Shown piece after piece: positions 12,953-56,097 of a DNA stretch of 64,000 nucleotides. The number at the start of each line of letters is the position of its first letter. Positions within the stretch are counted from its first letter, which is position 1. The translations under genes were made by a program, and so were the position numbers. The stretch comes from Fodinibius salipaludis. Its GTDB lineage: Bacteria > Bacteroidota > Rhodothermia > Balneolales > Balneolaceae. Under the pieces are notes generated by a model. It saw only the letters and a program-made list of their open reading frames with translations, was not told where the DNA came from and ran no database searches. The stretch is from positions 62,001 to 126,000 of the forward strand of contig NZ_NSKE01000012.1 of assembly GCF_002287075.1 (NCBI RefSeq). Direction: 5' to 3'.

Positions 12953-15729
12953 TGTGCTTTAAGCCAGTTGTTAGCCAATCCCATATCTACTCTTAATGGG
13001 CAGTCCAGTTCATAGGCAGATTCCATTAGTTCCTTTAACTTTTGAGGAACCGAATCTTCCTCTTCTTCCGGCACCTCAAAAATAAGTTCATCATGGACCT
13101 GCAGCAGCATCCGGGTTTGGAGCTCATTGTTCTCCAAATACTTCTGGATATCAATCATTGCCTGCTTTATGATATCTGCTGCAGTACCCTGTATCGGCAT
13201 ATTAATAGCTGTACGCTCTGCAAATGATCGCCTATTCCAGTTACTTGCATTGATATCAGAAATATAACGGCGGCGTCCCATCAGCGTTTTTACATAGCCT
13301 TGTTGTTTCGCAAAAGCTTTGGTTTCGTTAATGTATTCTAAGATTCCCGGAAAACGTTCAAAATACTGATCAATCATCTCTTTCCCTTCGCTATTGCTAA
13401 TCCCCAGCCTATTGGCTAATCCATAGGCACTTACCCCATAGGGAATTCCAAAATTAACCTCTTTTGCTTTTCGACGGTGATCAGAGGTAACATCATCGAG
13501 GGAGTCCAGCTCGAAAATCTCTTTAGCCGTTCTGGAGTGAATATCCTCATCATCTTTAAATGCCTGAAGCATATTATCATCACCCGACATGGAAGCAATA
13601 ACACGGAGTTCAACCTGTGAGTAATCAGCCGATAACAGCTTAAATCCTTCATCCGCAATAAAGGCCTTGCGAATCTCACGTCCCCGCTTGGTACGAATCG
13701 GTATATTTTGCAGGTTGGGATTTGATGATGAAAGTCGCCCCGTTGCCGCAATATGCTGATTAAAATCAGTATGGATGCGACCGGTCTCTTCATTGATTAA
13801 CTTTGGCAAGGCATCAACATAGGTAGATTTTAACTTGCTAAGCGCCCGGTATTCTAAAATAAGATCCGGCATCTCGTAATCCTTAGCTAACTTTTTCAAT
13901 ACCGATTCAGCCGTAGAATACTGCCCTGTTTTAGTTTTCTTACCGGCCGGCAGCCCCATCCTATCAAACATCACTTCGCCCAGCTGTTTCGGAGAATTGA
14001 TATTAAATTCTGTACCCGCCTTCTCATAAATCTGTTGCTCGATCTCTAACAGGTCATCACGCAGTGATGCTGAGAACTCATTAAGCATATCCTTGTCCAA
14101 TAAAATGCCATTCATCTCCATCTCGGCCAGTACTTCGATAAGCGGGAACTCCAGCTTTTCAGCAATATCATCGAGCTCATCCTCATCCAATTTATCACTT
14201 AGCACTTTATACAATCGCAAAGTTATATCAGCATCTTCGCAGGCATAAATACGAACCTCTTCCGGATCAAATTCATCCATCGACTTCTGTTTACGGCCAC
14301 TACCAATAAGATCTGTAATAGGAATGGGCTCATAATTGAGATACTCCTCAGCCAAGGTATCCATCTTTAGTTTTTGGTCCGCATCGATAAGATAGGCTGC
14401 AATCATTGTGTCAAAGGTTCTGCCCTGAATCTCCAAACCGGCCCGACGAAGCATCATGTAATCAAACTTAAAATTGTGAGCAATTTTAAGTGTTGTGGAG
14501 TTTGTAAACAAGGGACTCATGGTCTTCAGTGCCTCTTGTTCATCTAATCCCTTCTCTCCGTTCAATGGAACATAATAGGCAATACCGGGTGTAGCAGAGA
14601 TAGCTATCCCAACCAGGGAATTTTCCATGGGATCAACGCCATCAGTTTCGGTATCGAAACAAAAAGCGTTTTTACCGATGAGTTTATCTACCAGTTCTTC
14701 AAGGCTTTCTTTGGAATCAACCAATTCGTACGTAACAATATCTTCATCATAACTCTCGAGTGGTGACTCTTCTTCAATTTCATCATCCGCCAGAAACAGG
14801 TCGCCCTGATTTTCATTTCCGGAATCTGATTTTTTATCTGCTGATCGTACAATTTCTTCCCCCAAATACTTTTGGGTGAGCGTGCGAAACTCCATCCGCT
14901 TAAAGAAAGCCCCCAGCTTTTCGTCGTCAGCTCCTTGCCAGTCAAGATCCTCCCAATCTACTGTATCAGGCACATCTGTCTTAATCTTCACCATTTCCTT
15001 CGCGTGCAGTGCTTCTTCAGAATACTCCTGAAGCCCTTCGCGGTGACGCTTTGAACTCATGTTGGGAGCATCTTCAATAGCGGCTTCAAGCGATCCGTAT
15101 TTATTGATTAGCTTCGGAGCCCCTTTCTTCCCAATCCCTTTTACACCGGGAATATTATCTGATTTATCGCCAAGGATCGCCAGCACATCAACCACTTTTT
15201 CGGGATATACCCCAAAGTAATCTTTTACGCCTTCGCGATCTATCAGATTGAACCCCCCATTCTGGTTATCGGGTTTATACATGGTAACATGATCATGCAC
15301 CAACTGCATGAAATCTTTGTCTGGCGTAACCAGAAAAACATCTACATCTTCGGCGTTCGCCCGATCAGCAACCGTTCCAATAATGTCATCAGCCTCATAA
15401 CCATCCTGTTCAATATTTTTTATTCCATAGCCTTCAATCATCTCTTTAATCAGTGGAATACCGATGGTTAATTCTTCGGGCTGTGGCGGGCGGTTTGCCT
15501 TATAATCTTCATCCATTTCATGCCTGAAAGTAGGCTCCTGTGTATCCCAGGCTACGGCGATATGTGTAGGCTGATGCTCCTTAAGCAACTTTTCCAGCGT
15601 ATTAGCGAATCCCAAAATTGGTCCAGTGGGAATACCTTCAGAATTCTGTAAATTACTGCTGATAAATGCGAAGTGAGAACGATAGGCCAGCGCCATACCA
15701 TCCAACAAAAACAGGAGACTTTTAGACAT
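12949..15729 (-). CDS. polA: DNA polymerase I
   Basis: Repair and Okazaki-fragment polymerase, 926 residues with all three activities. The N-terminal 5' nuclease begins MSKSLLFLLDGMALAYRSHFAF and contains the metal-ligand region YEADDIIG. The 3'-5' exonuclease domain keeps its catalytic DTETDG (Asp359), so proofreading is probably intact. The polymerase domain has motif A DYSQVELRV (Asp702) and motif C HDEL (Asp880), matching E. coli D705 and D882. There is an acidic linker around residues 295-335. The gene converges on the DUF2914 gene with a 4-bp overlap and is divergent from the PP2C gene (128-bp gap). Confidence 0.98.
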   Translation of the reverse strand: MSKSLLFLLDGMALAYRSHFAFISSNLQNSEGIPTGPILGFANTLEKLLKEHQPTHIAVAWDTQEPTFRHEMDEDYKANRPPQPEELTIGIPLIKEMIEGYGIKNIEQDGYEADDIIGTVADRANAEDVDVFLVTPDKDFMQLVHDHVTMYKPDNQNGGFNLIDREGVKDYFGVYPEKVVDVLAILGDKSDNIPGVKGIGKKGAPKLINKYGSLEAAIEDAPNMSSKRHREGLQEYSEEALHAKEMVKIKTDVPDTVDWEDLDWQGADDEKLGAFFKRMEFRTLTQKYLGEEIVRSADKKSDSGNENQGDLFLADDEIEEESPLESYDEDIVTYELVDSKESLEELVDKLIGKNAFCFDTETDGVDPMENSLVGIAISATPGIAYYVPLNGEKGLDEQEALKTMSPLFTNSTTLKIAHNFKFDYMMLRRAGLEIQGRTFDTMIAAYLIDADQKLKMDTLAEEYLNYEPIPITDLIGSGRKQKSMDEFDPEEVRIYACEDADITLRLYKVLSDKLDEDELDDIAEKLEFPLIEVLAEMEMNGILLDKDMLNEFSASLRDDLLEIEQQIYEKAGTEFNINSPKQLGEVMFDRMGLPAGKKTKTGQYSTAESVLKKLAKDYEMPDLILEYRALSKLKSTYVDALPKLINEETGRIHTDFNQHIAATGRLSSSNPNLQNIPIRTKRGREIRKAFIADEGFKLLSADYSQVELRVIASMSGDDNMLQAFKDDEDIHSRTAKEIFELDSLDDVTSDHRRKAKEVNFGIPYGVSAYGLANRLGISNSEGKEMIDQYFERFPGILEYINETKAFAKQQGYVKTLMGRRRYISDINASNWNRRSFAERTAINMPIQGTAADIIKQAMIDIQKYLENNELQTRMLLQVHDELIFEVPEEEEDSVPQKLKELMESAYELDCPLRVDMGLANNWLKAH

Positions 15730-42647: not shown

Positions 42648-44063
42648 ATGAAACACGACGCAATTATTATCGGTTCCGGTCCCAACGGCTTAGCTGCCGG
42701 TATCCGTCTGGCGCAAGAGGGCCTATCCGTCAAAATATTTGAGAAAGGAGATACGATTGGCGGCGGAACCCGAACGCTGGAGTTAACCCAACCCGACTTT
42801 CACCACGATATTTGCTCTGCCATTCATCCTCTGGCCAAAGCCTCCCCATTTTTAAAAACGTTGCCCCTCGAAGATTACGGACTTGAGTGGATACAACCGG
42901 AAGTGCCTGTAGCACATCCGCTGGATAATCAACCCGCCGGAGCGCTGTTTCGATCGCTCGATAAAACGATAGATCATCTTGGCAGCGATGGTCCAACCTA
43001 TCGGAAGTGGATAACTCCCTATATTAATTCCTGGGATGATCTTCTTACTGATATTCTGGCTCCGTTTTCCCTCATTCCTCATAACCCGATATTGATGGCT
43101 CGGTTTGGACTTAAAGCACTCCGATCAGCCAACGGTTTTGCAAAACGATACAAAACCGAAAAAGCACGCGCCGTTTTTGCCGGGTTAGCGGCCCATGGAA
43201 TCATGCCCTTTGATGCCACCGCTACCGCTGCCATTGGGTTAGTGCTGGGAACAGCCGCTCACACTGTCGGATGGCCCTATCCCAAAGGTGGTTCGCATGC
43301 TATTACCAAAGCAATGGCAAAGCATTTTGAATCGCTGGGTGGCAAAATAGAGACAGGCGTTGAAATATCTTCTGTTGAGGAACTGCCCAAATCACAGAGC
43401 ATTCTTTTTAATAACACACCTCGGCAAATATTAGATATCGCAGACAACAAGCTTCCGCAGTCGTATGCCAAAAAGTTACGCAACTATAAATATGGTCAAG
43501 GCGTTTTTAAAATTGATTTTGCTTTAAGTGATCCCATCCCGTGGAATGATGAACTTTGCCAAAAAGCAGGCACGGTACATGTAGGGGGTACATTTGAAGA
43601 AATTGCAGCATCCGAAAAACAATCGGCAAACGGCCAACACCCCGAAAAACCGTATGTATTAGTTGCACAGCAAAGTTTGGGCGATCCCGGTCGTGCACCG
43701 GACAGTCGACATACCGGCTGGGCGTATTGCCACGTACCAAACGGATCAACGGAAGATATGACTGAGCCAATACTTCGACAGATTGAGCGCTTTGCCCCCG
43801 GATTTCGGGATTGCATTATTGACAGCCACAAAATGCACGCTCAAGATATGCAGGCTTACAATCCCAACTATATAGGCGGAGATATTAACGGCGGACGTGC
43901 TGATATTACACAGCTTTTTACGCGTCCGGCGGGATTCTTTGATCCATATCATATCCCCAAAACCGACATGTATATTGCTTCATCCTCCACTCCACCCGGT
44001 GGTGGCGTTCACGGTATGTGCGGATATCATGCAGCGGAATCAGTCTTAAAAAATTCATTCTGA
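42648..44063 (+). CDS. FAD-dependent oxidoreductase, phytoene desaturase/PYROXD2-like
   Basis: Flavoprotein of 471 residues. The Rossmann fold starts AIIIGSGPNGLAAGIRLAQEGLSVKIFEKGDTIGGGTRT (GxGxxG plus the second GG motif), characteristic of the amine-oxidase/CrtI superfamily. The C-terminus has ARPAGFFDPYHIPKTDMYIASSSTPPGGGVHGMCGYHAA, also typical of this group. It resembles the PYROXD2/COG1233 branch more than true CrtI, so a role in carotenoid desaturation is only a possibility. It stands alone, followed by the 441-bp repeat-rich gap. Confidence 0.8.
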   Translation: MKHDAIIIGSGPNGLAAGIRLAQEGLSVKIFEKGDTIGGGTRTLELTQPDFHHDICSAIHPLAKASPFLKTLPLEDYGLEWIQPEVPVAHPLDNQPAGALFRSLDKTIDHLGSDGPTYRKWITPYINSWDDLLTDILAPFSLIPHNPILMARFGLKALRSANGFAKRYKTEKARAVFAGLAAHGIMPFDATATAAIGLVLGTAAHTVGWPYPKGGSHAITKAMAKHFESLGGKIETGVEISSVEELPKSQSILFNNTPRQILDIADNKLPQSYAKKLRNYKYGQGVFKIDFALSDPIPWNDELCQKAGTVHVGGTFEEIAASEKQSANGQHPEKPYVLVAQQSLGDPGRAPDSRHTGWAYCHVPNGSTEDMTEPILRQIERFAPGFRDCIIDSHKMHAQDMQAYNPNYIGGDINGGRADITQLFTRPAGFFDPYHIPKTDMYIASSSTPPGGGVHGMCGYHAAESVLKNSF

Positions 44064-44504: not shown

Positions 44505-45200
44505 CTAAAACTCTACATACCCCTCCTGAGCCTCTCCCCTTCGCAACTTATTCGCCCACTGATGTGCCAGTCGCGATGTTTTCGGCAACTTATATTTTGT
44601 CAACGCCCCCATCACAATATTGTATGTATCTTTAAACGAGCAACGATATCCCGGAGATACATAAATAGGATTCACATTTGTTCGGCTCCGTAGTGCAATT
44701 CCAATTTTTTCGTCATCATCTATTAGATAAGCTTTATCTCCCTTATCGATTCCCAAATCACCGTGCGTACCGGTTAATATATTTTTGGCACAACCAATGG
44801 TAGGATGATCCACTTCTATACCAAAATGCGTGGCTATTCCCATTCGGCGTGGATGCGCAACTCCGTGTCCGTCGAGAATAAGGACATCCGATTTTAACTT
44901 AAGCTGATTCCACGCCTTCAGGAGCACCGGCATCTCCCGAAAAGCCAGTAATCCCGGTATATACGGAAAGCTCGTTTCATCTGATGCCAGCGATCGTGCT
45001 ACCGGAGTTAAATCAGGTAATTCCAACACTATAATAGCCGCATGCATAAGATCCGAACCGCGACTAAAAGATATATCTGCTCCCGCTATATATTTAGGAG
45101 GTTCCGGCAGCGGTTCCAATTTTATTTGCTGACGAAGTTCCTGTTGCAGCTCCTTCGCAGCGGAGGGATTAATGGTTTTATAGTGTTCTAATCGATTCAT
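44505..45200 (-). CDS. nfi: Endonuclease V
   Basis: Deoxyinosine 3' endonuclease for repair of deaminated adenine, 231 residues. Family blocks: YIAGADISFSRGSDLMHAAIIVLELPDL (first catalytic Asp), FPYIPGLLAFREMPVLLKAW (with the conserved Tyr wedge PYIPG and Glu), LILDGHGVAHPRRMGIATHFGI (second Asp) and YVSPGYRCSF. All are intact. The RAYT gene lies just upstream on the same strand, separated by a hairpin. Confidence 0.95.
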   Translation of the reverse strand: MNRLEHYKTINPSAAKELQQELRQQIKLEPLPEPPKYIAGADISFSRGSDLMHAAIIVLELPDLTPVARSLASDETSFPYIPGLLAFREMPVLLKAWNQLKLKSDVLILDGHGVAHPRRMGIATHFGIEVDHPTIGCAKNILTGTHGDLGIDKGDKAYLIDDDEKIGIALRSRTNVNPIYVSPGYRCSFKDTYNIVMGALTKYKLPKTSRLAHQWANKLRRGEAQEGYVEF

Positions 45201-45236: not shown

Positions 45237-45269
45237 AGACGGAGTTCACCTTCGAGGTGGACTCCGTCT
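45237..45269. repeat. REP-like hairpin 1 flanking the RAYT gene
   Basis: AGACGGAGTTCACCT and AGGTGGACTCCGTCT pair at 14 of 15 positions with a 3-nt loop (TCG). It overlaps the RAYT stop codon by 2 bp. The right arm AGGTGGACTCCGTCT recurs as AGGTGGACTCCATCT on the other side of the transposase gene. Confidence 0.8.
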
Positions 45270-45798
45270 ATTTAAAGCTGACTCTTCTTTTAGAAAATTC
45301 ACGGTATTCTTCTTTAGATGAAAAGTACCTATCAATTATAGAATGATCTACTAAACTTCCTTTTCTATAACCCGCCAAATCTAAATAGCTGGAATATCGC
45401 CATTCTTTAAGGTTATTAACTAATCTTGCTCGAACTGGATTTTGATGGATATATGAGATCAAAGTGAGTAAATAATTTTGATCATCAACCAATTGTGCTT
45501 TCGTATGCTGTTGAAATAAGCTCCCATTGCGATCAAAAGCTTTGTTGATGGCTTTTGTATAAGAACTTAGATGAGTACCGATCTGTTTTCTAAGCTCATC
45601 TATTTCTTTTGTCTCAACTCTGATTAAAAAGTGAAAATGGGTAGGCATTAGACAATAAGCGTAAACAGACAAATAATCTACAAACCGAACTTTAAACTTG
45701 CGCAAGAAATACCTATAGTTTTCTTTCTTTTTGAAAAGAAGCTCACGGTTATTAGATCTGTTATATAGATGATATACTTTATTAAACTGTAACTGCAC
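45268..45798 (-). CDS. REP-associated tyrosine transposase (Y1/HUH)
   Basis: HUH single-strand nuclease of 176 residues (TnpA_REP/Y1 family). The HUH motif is His54-Phe-His56 in LMPTHFHFLIRVE, and the catalytic Tyr is Tyr116 in SYIHQNPVRARLV. The N-terminal YHLYNRSNNRELLFKKKENYRYFLRKF and the C-terminal EWRYSSYLDLAG are also standard for the RAYT group, so the enzyme looks intact. Such proteins cut REP hairpins at a GTAG-like guide next to the stem. The gene is alone between matching hairpins; it is on the same strand as nfi, which follows after 67 bp. Confidence 0.9.
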   Translation of the reverse strand: MQLQFNKVYHLYNRSNNRELLFKKKENYRYFLRKFKVRFVDYLSVYAYCLMPTHFHFLIRVETKEIDELRKQIGTHLSSYTKAINKAFDRNGSLFQQHTKAQLVDDQNYLLTLISYIHQNPVRARLVNNLKEWRYSSYLDLAGYRKGSLVDHSIIDRYFSSKEEYREFSKRRVSFK

Positions 45799-45872
45799 GT
45801 ACTCTTATATTAAATTTTCCTTTAAAAGTAAGACCGATAAGCAGATAACTTCTTACAAAAAATTTAACTATT

Positions 45873-45905
45873 AGATAGAGCCCACCTCTCAGGTGGACTC
45901 CATCT
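45873..45905. repeat. REP-like hairpin 2 flanking the RAYT gene
   Basis: AGATAGAGCCCACCT and AGGTGGACTCCATCT pair at 13 of 15 positions with a 3-nt loop (CTC). It lies 75 bp upstream of the RAYT start and 20 bp upstream of the decarboxylase ATG, so it is within the leader of that gene. Confidence 0.8.
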
Positions 45906-45924: not shown

Positions 45925-47343
45925 ATGAATAACGAAGAATTCCGTAAACACGCCCACGAGCTCGTCGACTGGATGGCCGACTACTTCGATGAGGTTGAAG
46001 ATTATCCCGTAAAACCAGATGTGAAGCCCGGCGATATATCAGCACAACTTCCCGATGAAGCCCCGCAAAAACCGGAGTCTTTTGAAGAACAGATCGAGGA
46101 TTTCGAAAATAAAATTATCCCCGGAATAACCCACTGGCAAAGTCCCAATTTTATGGGCTATTTTCCTGCTAACACCAGCTACCCCTCGGTACTGGCCGAA
46201 ATGCTAACAGCTACCCTCGGCGCTCAATGCATGAGCTGGCTGACCTCTCCCGCCGCCACTGAACTCGAGGAACAAGTCATGGAGTGGTTGCGTAAAGCCA
46301 TCGGACTACCGGAACTTTTTACCGGGGTTATCCAAAGTACCGCCTCCACCTCTACCCTCTGTGCTTTGCTGATGGCTCGCGAACGCATTTCTGACTTTAA
46401 AATCAATGCATCCGGTTTTCCAACTGACGAGACGTACACTGTGTATTGCTCATCAGAAACACACTCATCCATCGAAAAAGATGTTAAGATAGCGGGATTC
46501 GGACGACAAAATCTGCGCACGATCCAAGTAGATCATGAACATGCTATGGATCCAAAGGCTTTAGAAGAATCAATTCGAGAAGATCTTGAAAATGGATACA
46601 AACCCACTGCCGTCGTAGCAACTATTGGTACTACGGGATCAACGGCTATTGATCCGGTAAAGGAAATAGGAGAAATTTGTGCCAGGTACGACATCTTCTT
46701 TCATATTGATGCTGCCTATGCAGGTACAGCACTTTTACTGCCCGAAATGCGGTGGATGAATAAAGGGATTGAATATGCGGATTCATTCGTTTTTAATCCC
46801 CACAAGTGGATGTTTACCAACTTTGACTGCTCGGCTTTTTATGTGCAGGATGAGGCGCTGCTTGTCCGTACGTTTGAAATTATGCCCGAATATCTAAAAA
46901 CACCGGAAGATCAGCGAGTTAAAAACTATCGTGATTGGGGGATTCCCCTGGGACGCCGATTCCGGGCACTCAAGTTATGGTTTGTGATGCGGAGTTACGG
47001 AATTGAAGGACTACAAGAAAAAATTCGTCAGCATATCCGACTCGGTCAGCAACTGAAAGAAGAAATCGAAGCACACGATCATTTTGAACTGCTTGCTCCC
47101 GTTCCGCTGAATACAATATGCTTTCGATTTCACCCTAACTTTATTGATGATAAAAAGAAACTCAATGAGCTAAACAAGAAGCTTCTTAATCAAATACAGG
47201 AAAGCGGGAAAATATTTCTTACCCATACCAAGCTGGATGGGAAATATACGATCCGTATTGTCTTGGGAAATACGAATCTTAAACAACGTCATGTGGATAA
47301 TGCGTGGCGGCTTATCCAAGACATTGCCAATAAATTAATTTAG
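45925..47343 (+). CDS. PLP-dependent decarboxylase, aromatic-L-amino-acid (group II) type
   Basis: Group II decarboxylase of 472 residues. The PLP lysine is Lys294 in FNPHKWMF; upstream blocks are HWQSPNFMGYFPANTSYPSVLAEML, AATELEEQVMEWLRKAIGLP, GVIQSTASTSTLCALLMARE and FHIDAAYAGTALLLPEMRW. This layout fits aromatic amino-acid decarboxylases (dopa, tryptophan, tyrosine) and relatives; the substrate cannot be deduced. It begins 20 bp after REP-like hairpin 2 and is followed by a 608-bp non-coding gap with two repeats. Confidence 0.9.
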   Translation: MNNEEFRKHAHELVDWMADYFDEVEDYPVKPDVKPGDISAQLPDEAPQKPESFEEQIEDFENKIIPGITHWQSPNFMGYFPANTSYPSVLAEMLTATLGAQCMSWLTSPAATELEEQVMEWLRKAIGLPELFTGVIQSTASTSTLCALLMARERISDFKINASGFPTDETYTVYCSSETHSSIEKDVKIAGFGRQNLRTIQVDHEHAMDPKALEESIREDLENGYKPTAVVATIGTTGSTAIDPVKEIGEICARYDIFFHIDAAYAGTALLLPEMRWMNKGIEYADSFVFNPHKWMFTNFDCSAFYVQDEALLVRTFEIMPEYLKTPEDQRVKNYRDWGIPLGRRFRALKLWFVMRSYGIEGLQEKIRQHIRLGQQLKEEIEAHDHFELLAPVPLNTICFRFHPNFIDDKKKLNELNKKLLNQIQESGKIFLTHTKLDGKYTIRIVLGNTNLKQRHVDNAWRLIQDIANKLI

Positions 47344-55921: not shown

Positions 55922-56097
55922 CCATCCGACCGCTGGCTTTGCGATCGGATGGATATATTATTAGCAATTTATTGCCTTGAAGTGTGAACTCTTCAACCGG
56001 CCACAATTACGTACCGCAGCAGAGCTACGGTACGAGATAGGAATCATAGGAAAATCATTAATAGATCTCCGGAGATTTTGAAAACTCCTGGGATCTA
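55922..56097. repeat. Three tandem hairpins between the acyltransferase and CrtC-like genes
   Basis: CCATCCGA/TCGGATGG (55922-55952), GTACCGCAGC/GCTACGGTAC (56011-56033, 9 of 10 pairs) and TAGATC..GGAG/CTCC..GATCTA (56062-56097, 11 of 13 pairs). They occupy the gap between two convergent genes and may end transcription from either side, but no long T run follows. Confidence 0.5.

Follow-up and report, generated by a model that had tools for sequence, protein, structure and literature searches.

We analysed a window of 64,000 nucleotides from Fodinibius salipaludis (G000:C4:62001-126000, from a 3.58-Mb genome in 39 contigs). Within this window, a gene that encodes a RAYT-type protein lies between genes for endonuclease V and a PLP-dependent decarboxylase, and matching hairpins flank the RAYT gene on both sides (Table 1).

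Table 1. Features of the RAYT locus in window coordinates; the R1 E values come from a covariance model for which both hairpins were among the training sequences.
Feature	Position	Strand	Description
Oxidoreductase-like gene (left anchor)	42648..44063	plus	name from reading the sequence; synteny
Endonuclease V gene (anchor, outside the element)	44505..45200	minus	Pfam Endonuclease_5, 229 bits; in 12/12 genus genomes
Hairpin 1 (downstream cognate hairpin)	45237..45269	.	33 nt, 15-bp stem, 3-nt loop; R1 E 9.3e-8
RAYT / TnpAREP-like Y1 HUH transposase	45268..45798	minus	176 aa, GTG start; H54-F-H56 and Y116 intact
Hairpin 2 (upstream cognate hairpin)	45873..45905	.	33 nt, 15-bp stem, 3-nt loop; R1 E 1.6e-8
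PLP-dependent decarboxylase (right anchor, outside the element)	45925..47343	plus	Pfam Pyridoxal_deC, 374.9 bits; synteny

The RAYT protein and its flanking hairpins

Y1_Tnp was the sole Pfam domain found in the 176-aa RAYT (26.3 bits, cut-off 23), and the NCBIfam equivalog REP_Tyr_transpos scored 64.1 bits, under its cut-off of 80. The best Foldseek match to the AlphaFold2 model (pLDDT 94.7) was the TnpAREP structure 4er8 (E 4.7e-8), which was also the sole sequence match in a PDB search with the family profile (E 9.8e-9). A preliminary description of this DNA had identified an HUH transposase with His54-Phe-His56 and Tyr116, and we agree with this assignment: H54, H56, Y116 and P121 are invariant across the alignment rows of 32 relatives. 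The tyrosine motif reads Y116-I-H-Q-N120-P121, so that the protein combines HUH with a single tyrosine in a Y---NP signature; it also has the motifs THFH and FQ and an HUH-Tyr spacing of 60 aa. The genome contains only one copy of this RAYT, and the closest other RAYT within it is 48% identical.

Hairpin 1 has the sequence AGACGGAGTTCACCT-tcg-AGGTGGACTCCGTCT and hairpin 2 the sequence AGATAGAGCCCACCT-ctc-AGGTGGACTCCATCT, with Watson-Crick pairs at 14/15 and 13/15 stem positions. As described previously, both have 15-bp stems, a single base distinguishes their right arms, and hairpin 1 overlaps the RAYT stop codon (45268-45270, minus-strand ORF) by 2 bp. Between the left arms there are four differences. 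Hairpin 2 lies 74 bp ahead of the RAYT start and 19 nt ahead of the decarboxylase ATG (45925), a distance that had been given as 20 bp. The arm is also unique among the palindromes of the window, as had been claimed; beyond the two hairpins, AGGTGGACTCC with ≤1 mismatch occurs in the window only at 13501-13511, outside any hairpin. The proposed GTAG-like guides were absent, since GT[AG]G is found at the foot of neither hairpin, and neither 33-nt sequence contains a GGGGWSAS-type terminal inverted repeat.

The two hairpins form the only matched pair within 1.2 kb in the window, and 100 Markov-1 simulated windows yielded 0 pairs. Matched flanking hairpins were identified at 14/33 RAYT loci, with the window locus counted, versus 0/155 control genes; the pair threshold for the window, simulation and control counts was set to 0.75, down from 0.80, because the window pair (score 0.79) was missed at 0.80. 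In a set consisting mostly of loci L140-L219, plus four, hairpins were found at 3.06/kb within 300 bp of a RAYT (140 in 45,779 bp) and at 0.23/kb beyond 800 bp (92 in 398,233 bp); these counts leave out some of the 80 RAYT loci as duplicates or as partial or odd matches.

It is very unlikely that the two hairpins are plain transcription terminators, or stems for mRNA stability, whose likeness is accidental. The overlap of hairpin 1 with a stop codon would suit a terminator, as would the location of weaker family matches between converging genes with A/T tracts (e.g., C3:73507), but no T-run follows either window hairpin on the plus strand (ATTTAAAG, GAGTAAGA) or on the minus strand (GGATAGGT, AATAGTTA), and we rejected ordinary terminators on this basis. 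Moreover, hairpin 2 is upstream of the RAYT gene, within the leader of the divergent gene, the control genes have no matched pairs, and the hairpin family has mismatches that are conserved from locus to locus and that a terminator does not need.

Insertion pattern around endonuclease V

The oxidoreductase-like gene, on the plus strand, and the endonuclease V gene are adjacent in 12/12 genus genomes (the G003 oxidoreductase is truncated), and the decarboxylase gene is next in line in 11/12, as it was not found in G011. The RAYT gene occupies the gap between endonuclease V and the decarboxylase in G000 and the gap between endonuclease V and the oxidoreductase in G003 and G009. It is at neither candidate site in 9/12 genus members, in which the closest RAYT at any other location is 45% identical. 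The endonuclease V-decarboxylase gap is 724 bp in G000 versus about 80-85 bp in seven other genomes (G003, G004, G005, G006, G008, G010 and the out-group G021); it is 281 bp in G002, 184 bp in G007 and 1,392 bp in G001, in which the gap holds an additional inserted gene.

Because the hairpin-RAYT-hairpin block is missing at both sites in 9/12 genomes and lies on the opposite side of endonuclease V in two, it behaves as an insertion, and we infer that this insertion-type feature with two positions near endonuclease V can move. The two positions are compatible with a local move, with two separate insertions, and with duplication followed by loss. RAYT identities among G000, G003 and G009 are 65.7, 66.7 and 67.3%, and those of endonuclease V are 69-70%; given this similar divergence, recent mobility and ordinary vertical inheritance with losses are equally likely. 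Neither a target-site duplication nor a base-exact empty site could be defined at the locus because the flanks are too diverged for alignment, and a search of 13 regions and one contig covering the anchor-gene gaps of relatives returned no credible RAYT remnants (four matches, E 0.012-0.77). The gaps on the two sides of endonuclease V are prone to insertion: by reading of translations, L085 5165-5695 and L089 4297-5689 contain a small four-helix-bundle-like ORF (G007) and a permease-like ORF (G001).

A true IS200/IS605-family insertion sequence, with subterminal hairpins and movement of the whole unit, would account for the compact block, in which the hairpins abut the gene, and for the insertion-like presence and absence at two positions around endonuclease V. 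The family members IS608 and ISDra2 share the HUH/Y1 core and subterminal hairpins with the window element. We nevertheless consider this origin improbable: the RAYT has Y-I-H-Q-N-P and T-H-F-H, whereas the pertinent part of PMC6006769 gives Y---Q and DH[VI]H for TnpA-IS200; the gene lacks near-identical genomic copies; and its nearest solved fold is TnpAREP rather than IS608 or ISDra2. A domesticated RAYT with a host function, its two relic hairpins serving as its own regulatory sites, would agree with the single copy, the lack of spread, the intact catalytic site and a divergence close to that of the housekeeping neighbour, but is hardly credible for a gene that is missing from this locus in most of the genus, with only a 45% identical RAYT elsewhere in those genomes, and that varies in position between species.

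Hairpin copies in the genome and in relatives

The preliminary description had interpreted the hairpins as REPs specific to this RAYT, proposed a genome-wide search for dispersed copies, and counted an absence of other copies in the genome against this interpretation. In the 3.58 Mb of G000, the exact 11-mer AGGTGGACTCC occurs twice, both times at the window RAYT, and the 15-base arm with ≤3 mismatches had 42 matches versus 75 for its reversed control. We also searched with the R1 covariance model, which was built from eight hairpins of G000, G003, G009 and G013 (hairpin G009 55516 was omitted because it was misaligned); this search identified no further places in G000 at E ≤ 0.001 and three weak ones (E 0.0024, 0.0079 and 0.044). 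The first of these, C3:73507, lies between converging glycyl-tRNA synthetase-like and superoxide-dismutase-like ORFs (named from their translations) and looks like an ordinary terminator. Since the arm is restricted to the two window hairpins, and the 15-mers are not above the reversed control, we rejected a dispersed REP family in G000. Other copies are thus absent from G000, whereas relatives do carry dispersed copies; what stands of the earlier interpretation is that the hairpin family travels with the RAYT lineage. The cognate hairpin in G000 appears never to have spread, or to have been lost.

The hairpin family flanks 65-67% identical RAYTs in G003 and G009 (three R1 matches each) and is found on one side of a frameshifted, 62% identical RAYT copy in G013. 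R1 matches were detected in 8/12 genus genomes and in 10/97 relatives; beyond the genus, only G013 and G021 had matches. The numbers of places outside RAYT loci at E ≤ 0.001 were 9 in G007, 8 in G009, 4 each in G013 and G021, 2 in G004, and 1 each in G002, G003 and G006, versus 0 in G000. A T-C mismatch is common to the GATGGAGTCCACCT..AGGTGGCCTCCATC copies in G009 and G007, and two G-T wobbles recur among GGTGCGGTCCACTT..AAGTGGGCTGCACC copies at different loci. Inverted doublets, in which 50-53 bp separate the two starts, were seen next to the G009 RAYT and at two places in G007, a genome with no RAYT of the window clade (best 45% identity). Some weak family members look like bidirectional terminators, and perfect hairpins among the weaker R1 matches may be terminators. 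The G003 hairpins are oriented differently with respect to their RAYT than those of G000 and G009. The window locus presents a RAYT with an unspread hairpin, alongside relatives with dispersed members of its family.

The G013 RAYT (L095 1990-2510) has one full hairpin and an apparent half hairpin at its other end; judged from these features and the frameshift, the unit looks to be decaying.

Other RAYTs in G000 also have hairpins. The L003 RAYT (C23) has GTAGAGCGATTT-nnn-AAATCGCTCTAC on both sides, at 1386-1410 and 2051-2077, so that several G000 RAYTs each have their own hairpin. Window positions 55922-55952 (CCATCCGACCGC-tggcttt-GCGATCGGATGG) are a dispersed copy of the hairpin beside the L007 RAYT (C36:109513-110028); with ≤3 mismatches, this hairpin occurs at five places in G000, two beside the L007 RAYT and three further, of which the window copy is one. 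Two more hairpins (CGTACCGCAGC-aga-GCTACGGTACG and TAGATCTCCGGAGATT...) adjoin this copy at 56010-56097, and the former resembles those of the C34 RAYT (L005). The 55922-56097 region is possibly a cluster of REP-like units from several families.

Hairpin geometry and its relation to known systems

Hairpins near 129 RAYT loci, mostly from Bacteroidota, commonly have a 15-3-15 design with arms that are quasi-palindromic in their own right. We compared a first set of loci (set 1) with 51 further Bacteroidota RAYT loci (set 2), 28 of which have 3-nt-loop hairpins. A stem of 15 with a loop of 3 was the commonest geometry in both sets (21/68 and 20/61 distinct locus-geometry pairs; 4/40 and 1/4 among far hairpins). 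In set 1, pairing in the 3-nt-loop hairpins near RAYTs fell from 0.75 at pair 15 to 0.31 at pair 16, and the corresponding values for far control hairpins were 0.41 and 0.27. AG lies opposite CT at pairs 14-15 in 20/37 set 1 loci versus 2/26 far loci, with weighted fractions of 0.01 or less at neighbouring offsets. This foot is weaker in set 2, where it is found at pairs 14-15 in 8/28 loci (0 to 2 at other offsets) and where many units start with AAA; the set 2 apex is T/A in 27/28 loci.

The first statistic of arm palindromy gave a modest difference (3.23 versus 2.36 for shuffled arms; 2.47 versus 2.07 for control hairpins). A much stronger fixed-centre statistic, chosen after set 1 had been inspected, gave 4.44 self-complementary pairs of 7 possible in set 1 (n=27) and 5.30 in set 2 (n=23), a replicate that is not blind because the set 2 sequences were listed ahead of scoring. 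Shuffled arms gave 1.80-1.85 (largest shuffle means 2.70 in set 1 and 2.57 in set 2), and control hairpin arms gave 1.6 in set 1 (10 controls) and a mean of 4.5 in set 2, from only two controls. With one arm per sequence family, the value was 3.67 (27 families) versus 1.81 for shuffles (largest 2.59) and 1.94 for control families (18). The window arms have 4, 5, 4 and 6 of the 7 pairs.

GT[AG]G was present near the foot in 14/302 unit-strands (68 loci), which is about the chance level (estimated at 5.5% with equal base use). The 15-3 unit was found at 37/65 TH[FY]H, 13/36 NHFH, 15/29 NHYH and 15/27 other loci, and so goes beyond TH[FY]H proteins. The strand on which a unit lies with respect to its RAYT follows no consistent rule. 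RAYT-flank units of 15-3-15 design were searched for in six further Bacteroidota genomes and occur at 13-39 places in each (reversed control, 0). Neither the relevant parts of PMC3733652, PMC6006769 and PMC8266576 nor a literature search yielded a 15-3-15 rule, and a literature search by sequence for known Bacteroidota repeats showed nothing relevant among the papers listed.

REPtrons, TIRtrons and the "atypical secondary structures" of a TnpAY1 subclass are already described in sections of PMC3733652 and PMC6006769, and the window element is a variant. Based on portions of PMC6006769 and PMC8266576, it resembles REPtrons in its Y1 HUH protein with Y---NP, its TnpAREP fold, its own hairpins on both sides, its low gene copy number, and the dispersal of hairpin families in some relatives; it differs in that it lacks a GT[AG]G foot, most of the GTAG-reading residues are replaced, the hairpin is undispersed in G000, and the arms are self-complementary, which makes the unit nearly strand-symmetric. 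In the section of PMC3733652 on TIRtrons (TIRYT), a RAYT-like gene likewise lies between non-GTAG repeats that are not always repeated in the genome, and some of these repeats are self-complementary or, in a figure legend, "double palindromic". The window hairpins lack GGGGWSAS, which is a consensus for only part of the TIRs, and that section and related passages do not describe a fixed 15-3-15 geometry.

Two TnpAY1 subclasses, as characterised in parts of PMC6006769, are also similar. Subclass 2.6 (RAYT group 5) shares a Bacteroidota origin, a length of about 179 aa, YIH[QN]NP and "atypical secondary structures" without GT[AG]G, but it has NH[LIV]H and WQ rather than THFH and FQ, and a median HUH-Tyr spacing of 82 aa rather than 60; with these values as the yardstick, we withdrew an assignment to subclass 2.6 on spacing and motifs. 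Subclass 2.1 (RAYT group 1) shares FQ, an [N]H[YF]H-like motif, Y[IV]H-NP and a short HUH-Tyr spacing, whereas the window RAYT lacks the long C-terminal HTH extension and is shorter than the median of 238 aa. The same parts report no REP-like sequences near subclass 2.1 genes.

We consider it likely that the locus is a REPtron/TIRtron-like unit, in which a TnpAREP-type single-strand HUH nuclease and the two hairpins that it recognises were inserted between endonuclease V and the decarboxylase. The TnpAREP fold, the invariant catalytic residues, the matched hairpins, the raised hairpin density near RAYTs, the dispersal of comparator units from other RAYTs, the presence of this hairpin family by orthologous RAYTs, the presence and absence of the block at the locus, and the dispersed copies in relatives argue for this interpretation. 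Counted against it are the lack of dispersal in G000, the lack of a definable empty site, the endonuclease V-like divergence, the terminator-like weak members and the varying orientation.

In the pertinent passages of PMC8266576, GTAG is treated as the guide in the TnpAREPs studied; the A and G at its end select the CT cleavage dinucleotide (shown for the Marinomonas REPtron only), and the opposite REP strand is neither bound nor cut in the E. coli and Stenotrophomonas cases. The E. coli TnpAREP residues named for GTAG reading in part of PMC6006769 (W94, Q95, E100, H101 and R104) align to F95, Q96, A101, Q102 and D105 of the window RAYT; thus, only Q is kept, with F in place of W. Under the REPtron/TIRtron-like reading, the RAYT would bind the hairpin once it has folded in single-stranded DNA, with replication forks as the probable site; Tyr116 would nick at or near the hairpin foot, and the protein could mobilise the hairpin or, on rare occasions, the complete hairpin-gene-hairpin block. 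Recognition may rely on the 15-3-15 shape with its AG...CT foot, and AG and the opposing CT would hold the essential part of the guide and target inside the stem. We propose recognition by shape because the unit lacks a GTAG tag and is a palindrome at each of two levels; the substrates that its two strands present would be almost identical.

More tentatively, the window RAYT may belong to a class, mainly in Bacteroidota but with cyanobacterial and Chloroflexota records, that has a tagless, strand-symmetric 33-nt "palindrome of palindromes" as its REP, a type that the passages cited above do not describe. Its unit would consist of two quasi-palindromes, each 15 nt long and of the 6-3-6 kind, separated by 3 nt. 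A purine foot, in many cases AG opposite CT, would carry the guide and cleavage dinucleotide inside the stem, so that the nuclease would be able to act on either strand. All studied cases of how TnpAREP proteins locate and spread REPs use strand-specific GTAG to some degree. A RAYT lineage whose hairpins are tagless, fixed in geometry and nearly strand-symmetric would make it possible to ask directly if the GTAG guide is necessary.

Units of the AAACCTRACAGGTTT-nnn-AAACCTGTYAGGTTT type lie beside Bacteroidota RAYTs at L257, L258, L264, L265, L272 and L281, and units of this kind account for the 13-39 dispersed places per genome across the six genomes tested. At L177-L179, L187, L188 and L190, cyanobacterial RAYTs are flanked by 15-3-15 units of the AGATCCCCGACTTTT / AGACCCCAGGGTTTT type.
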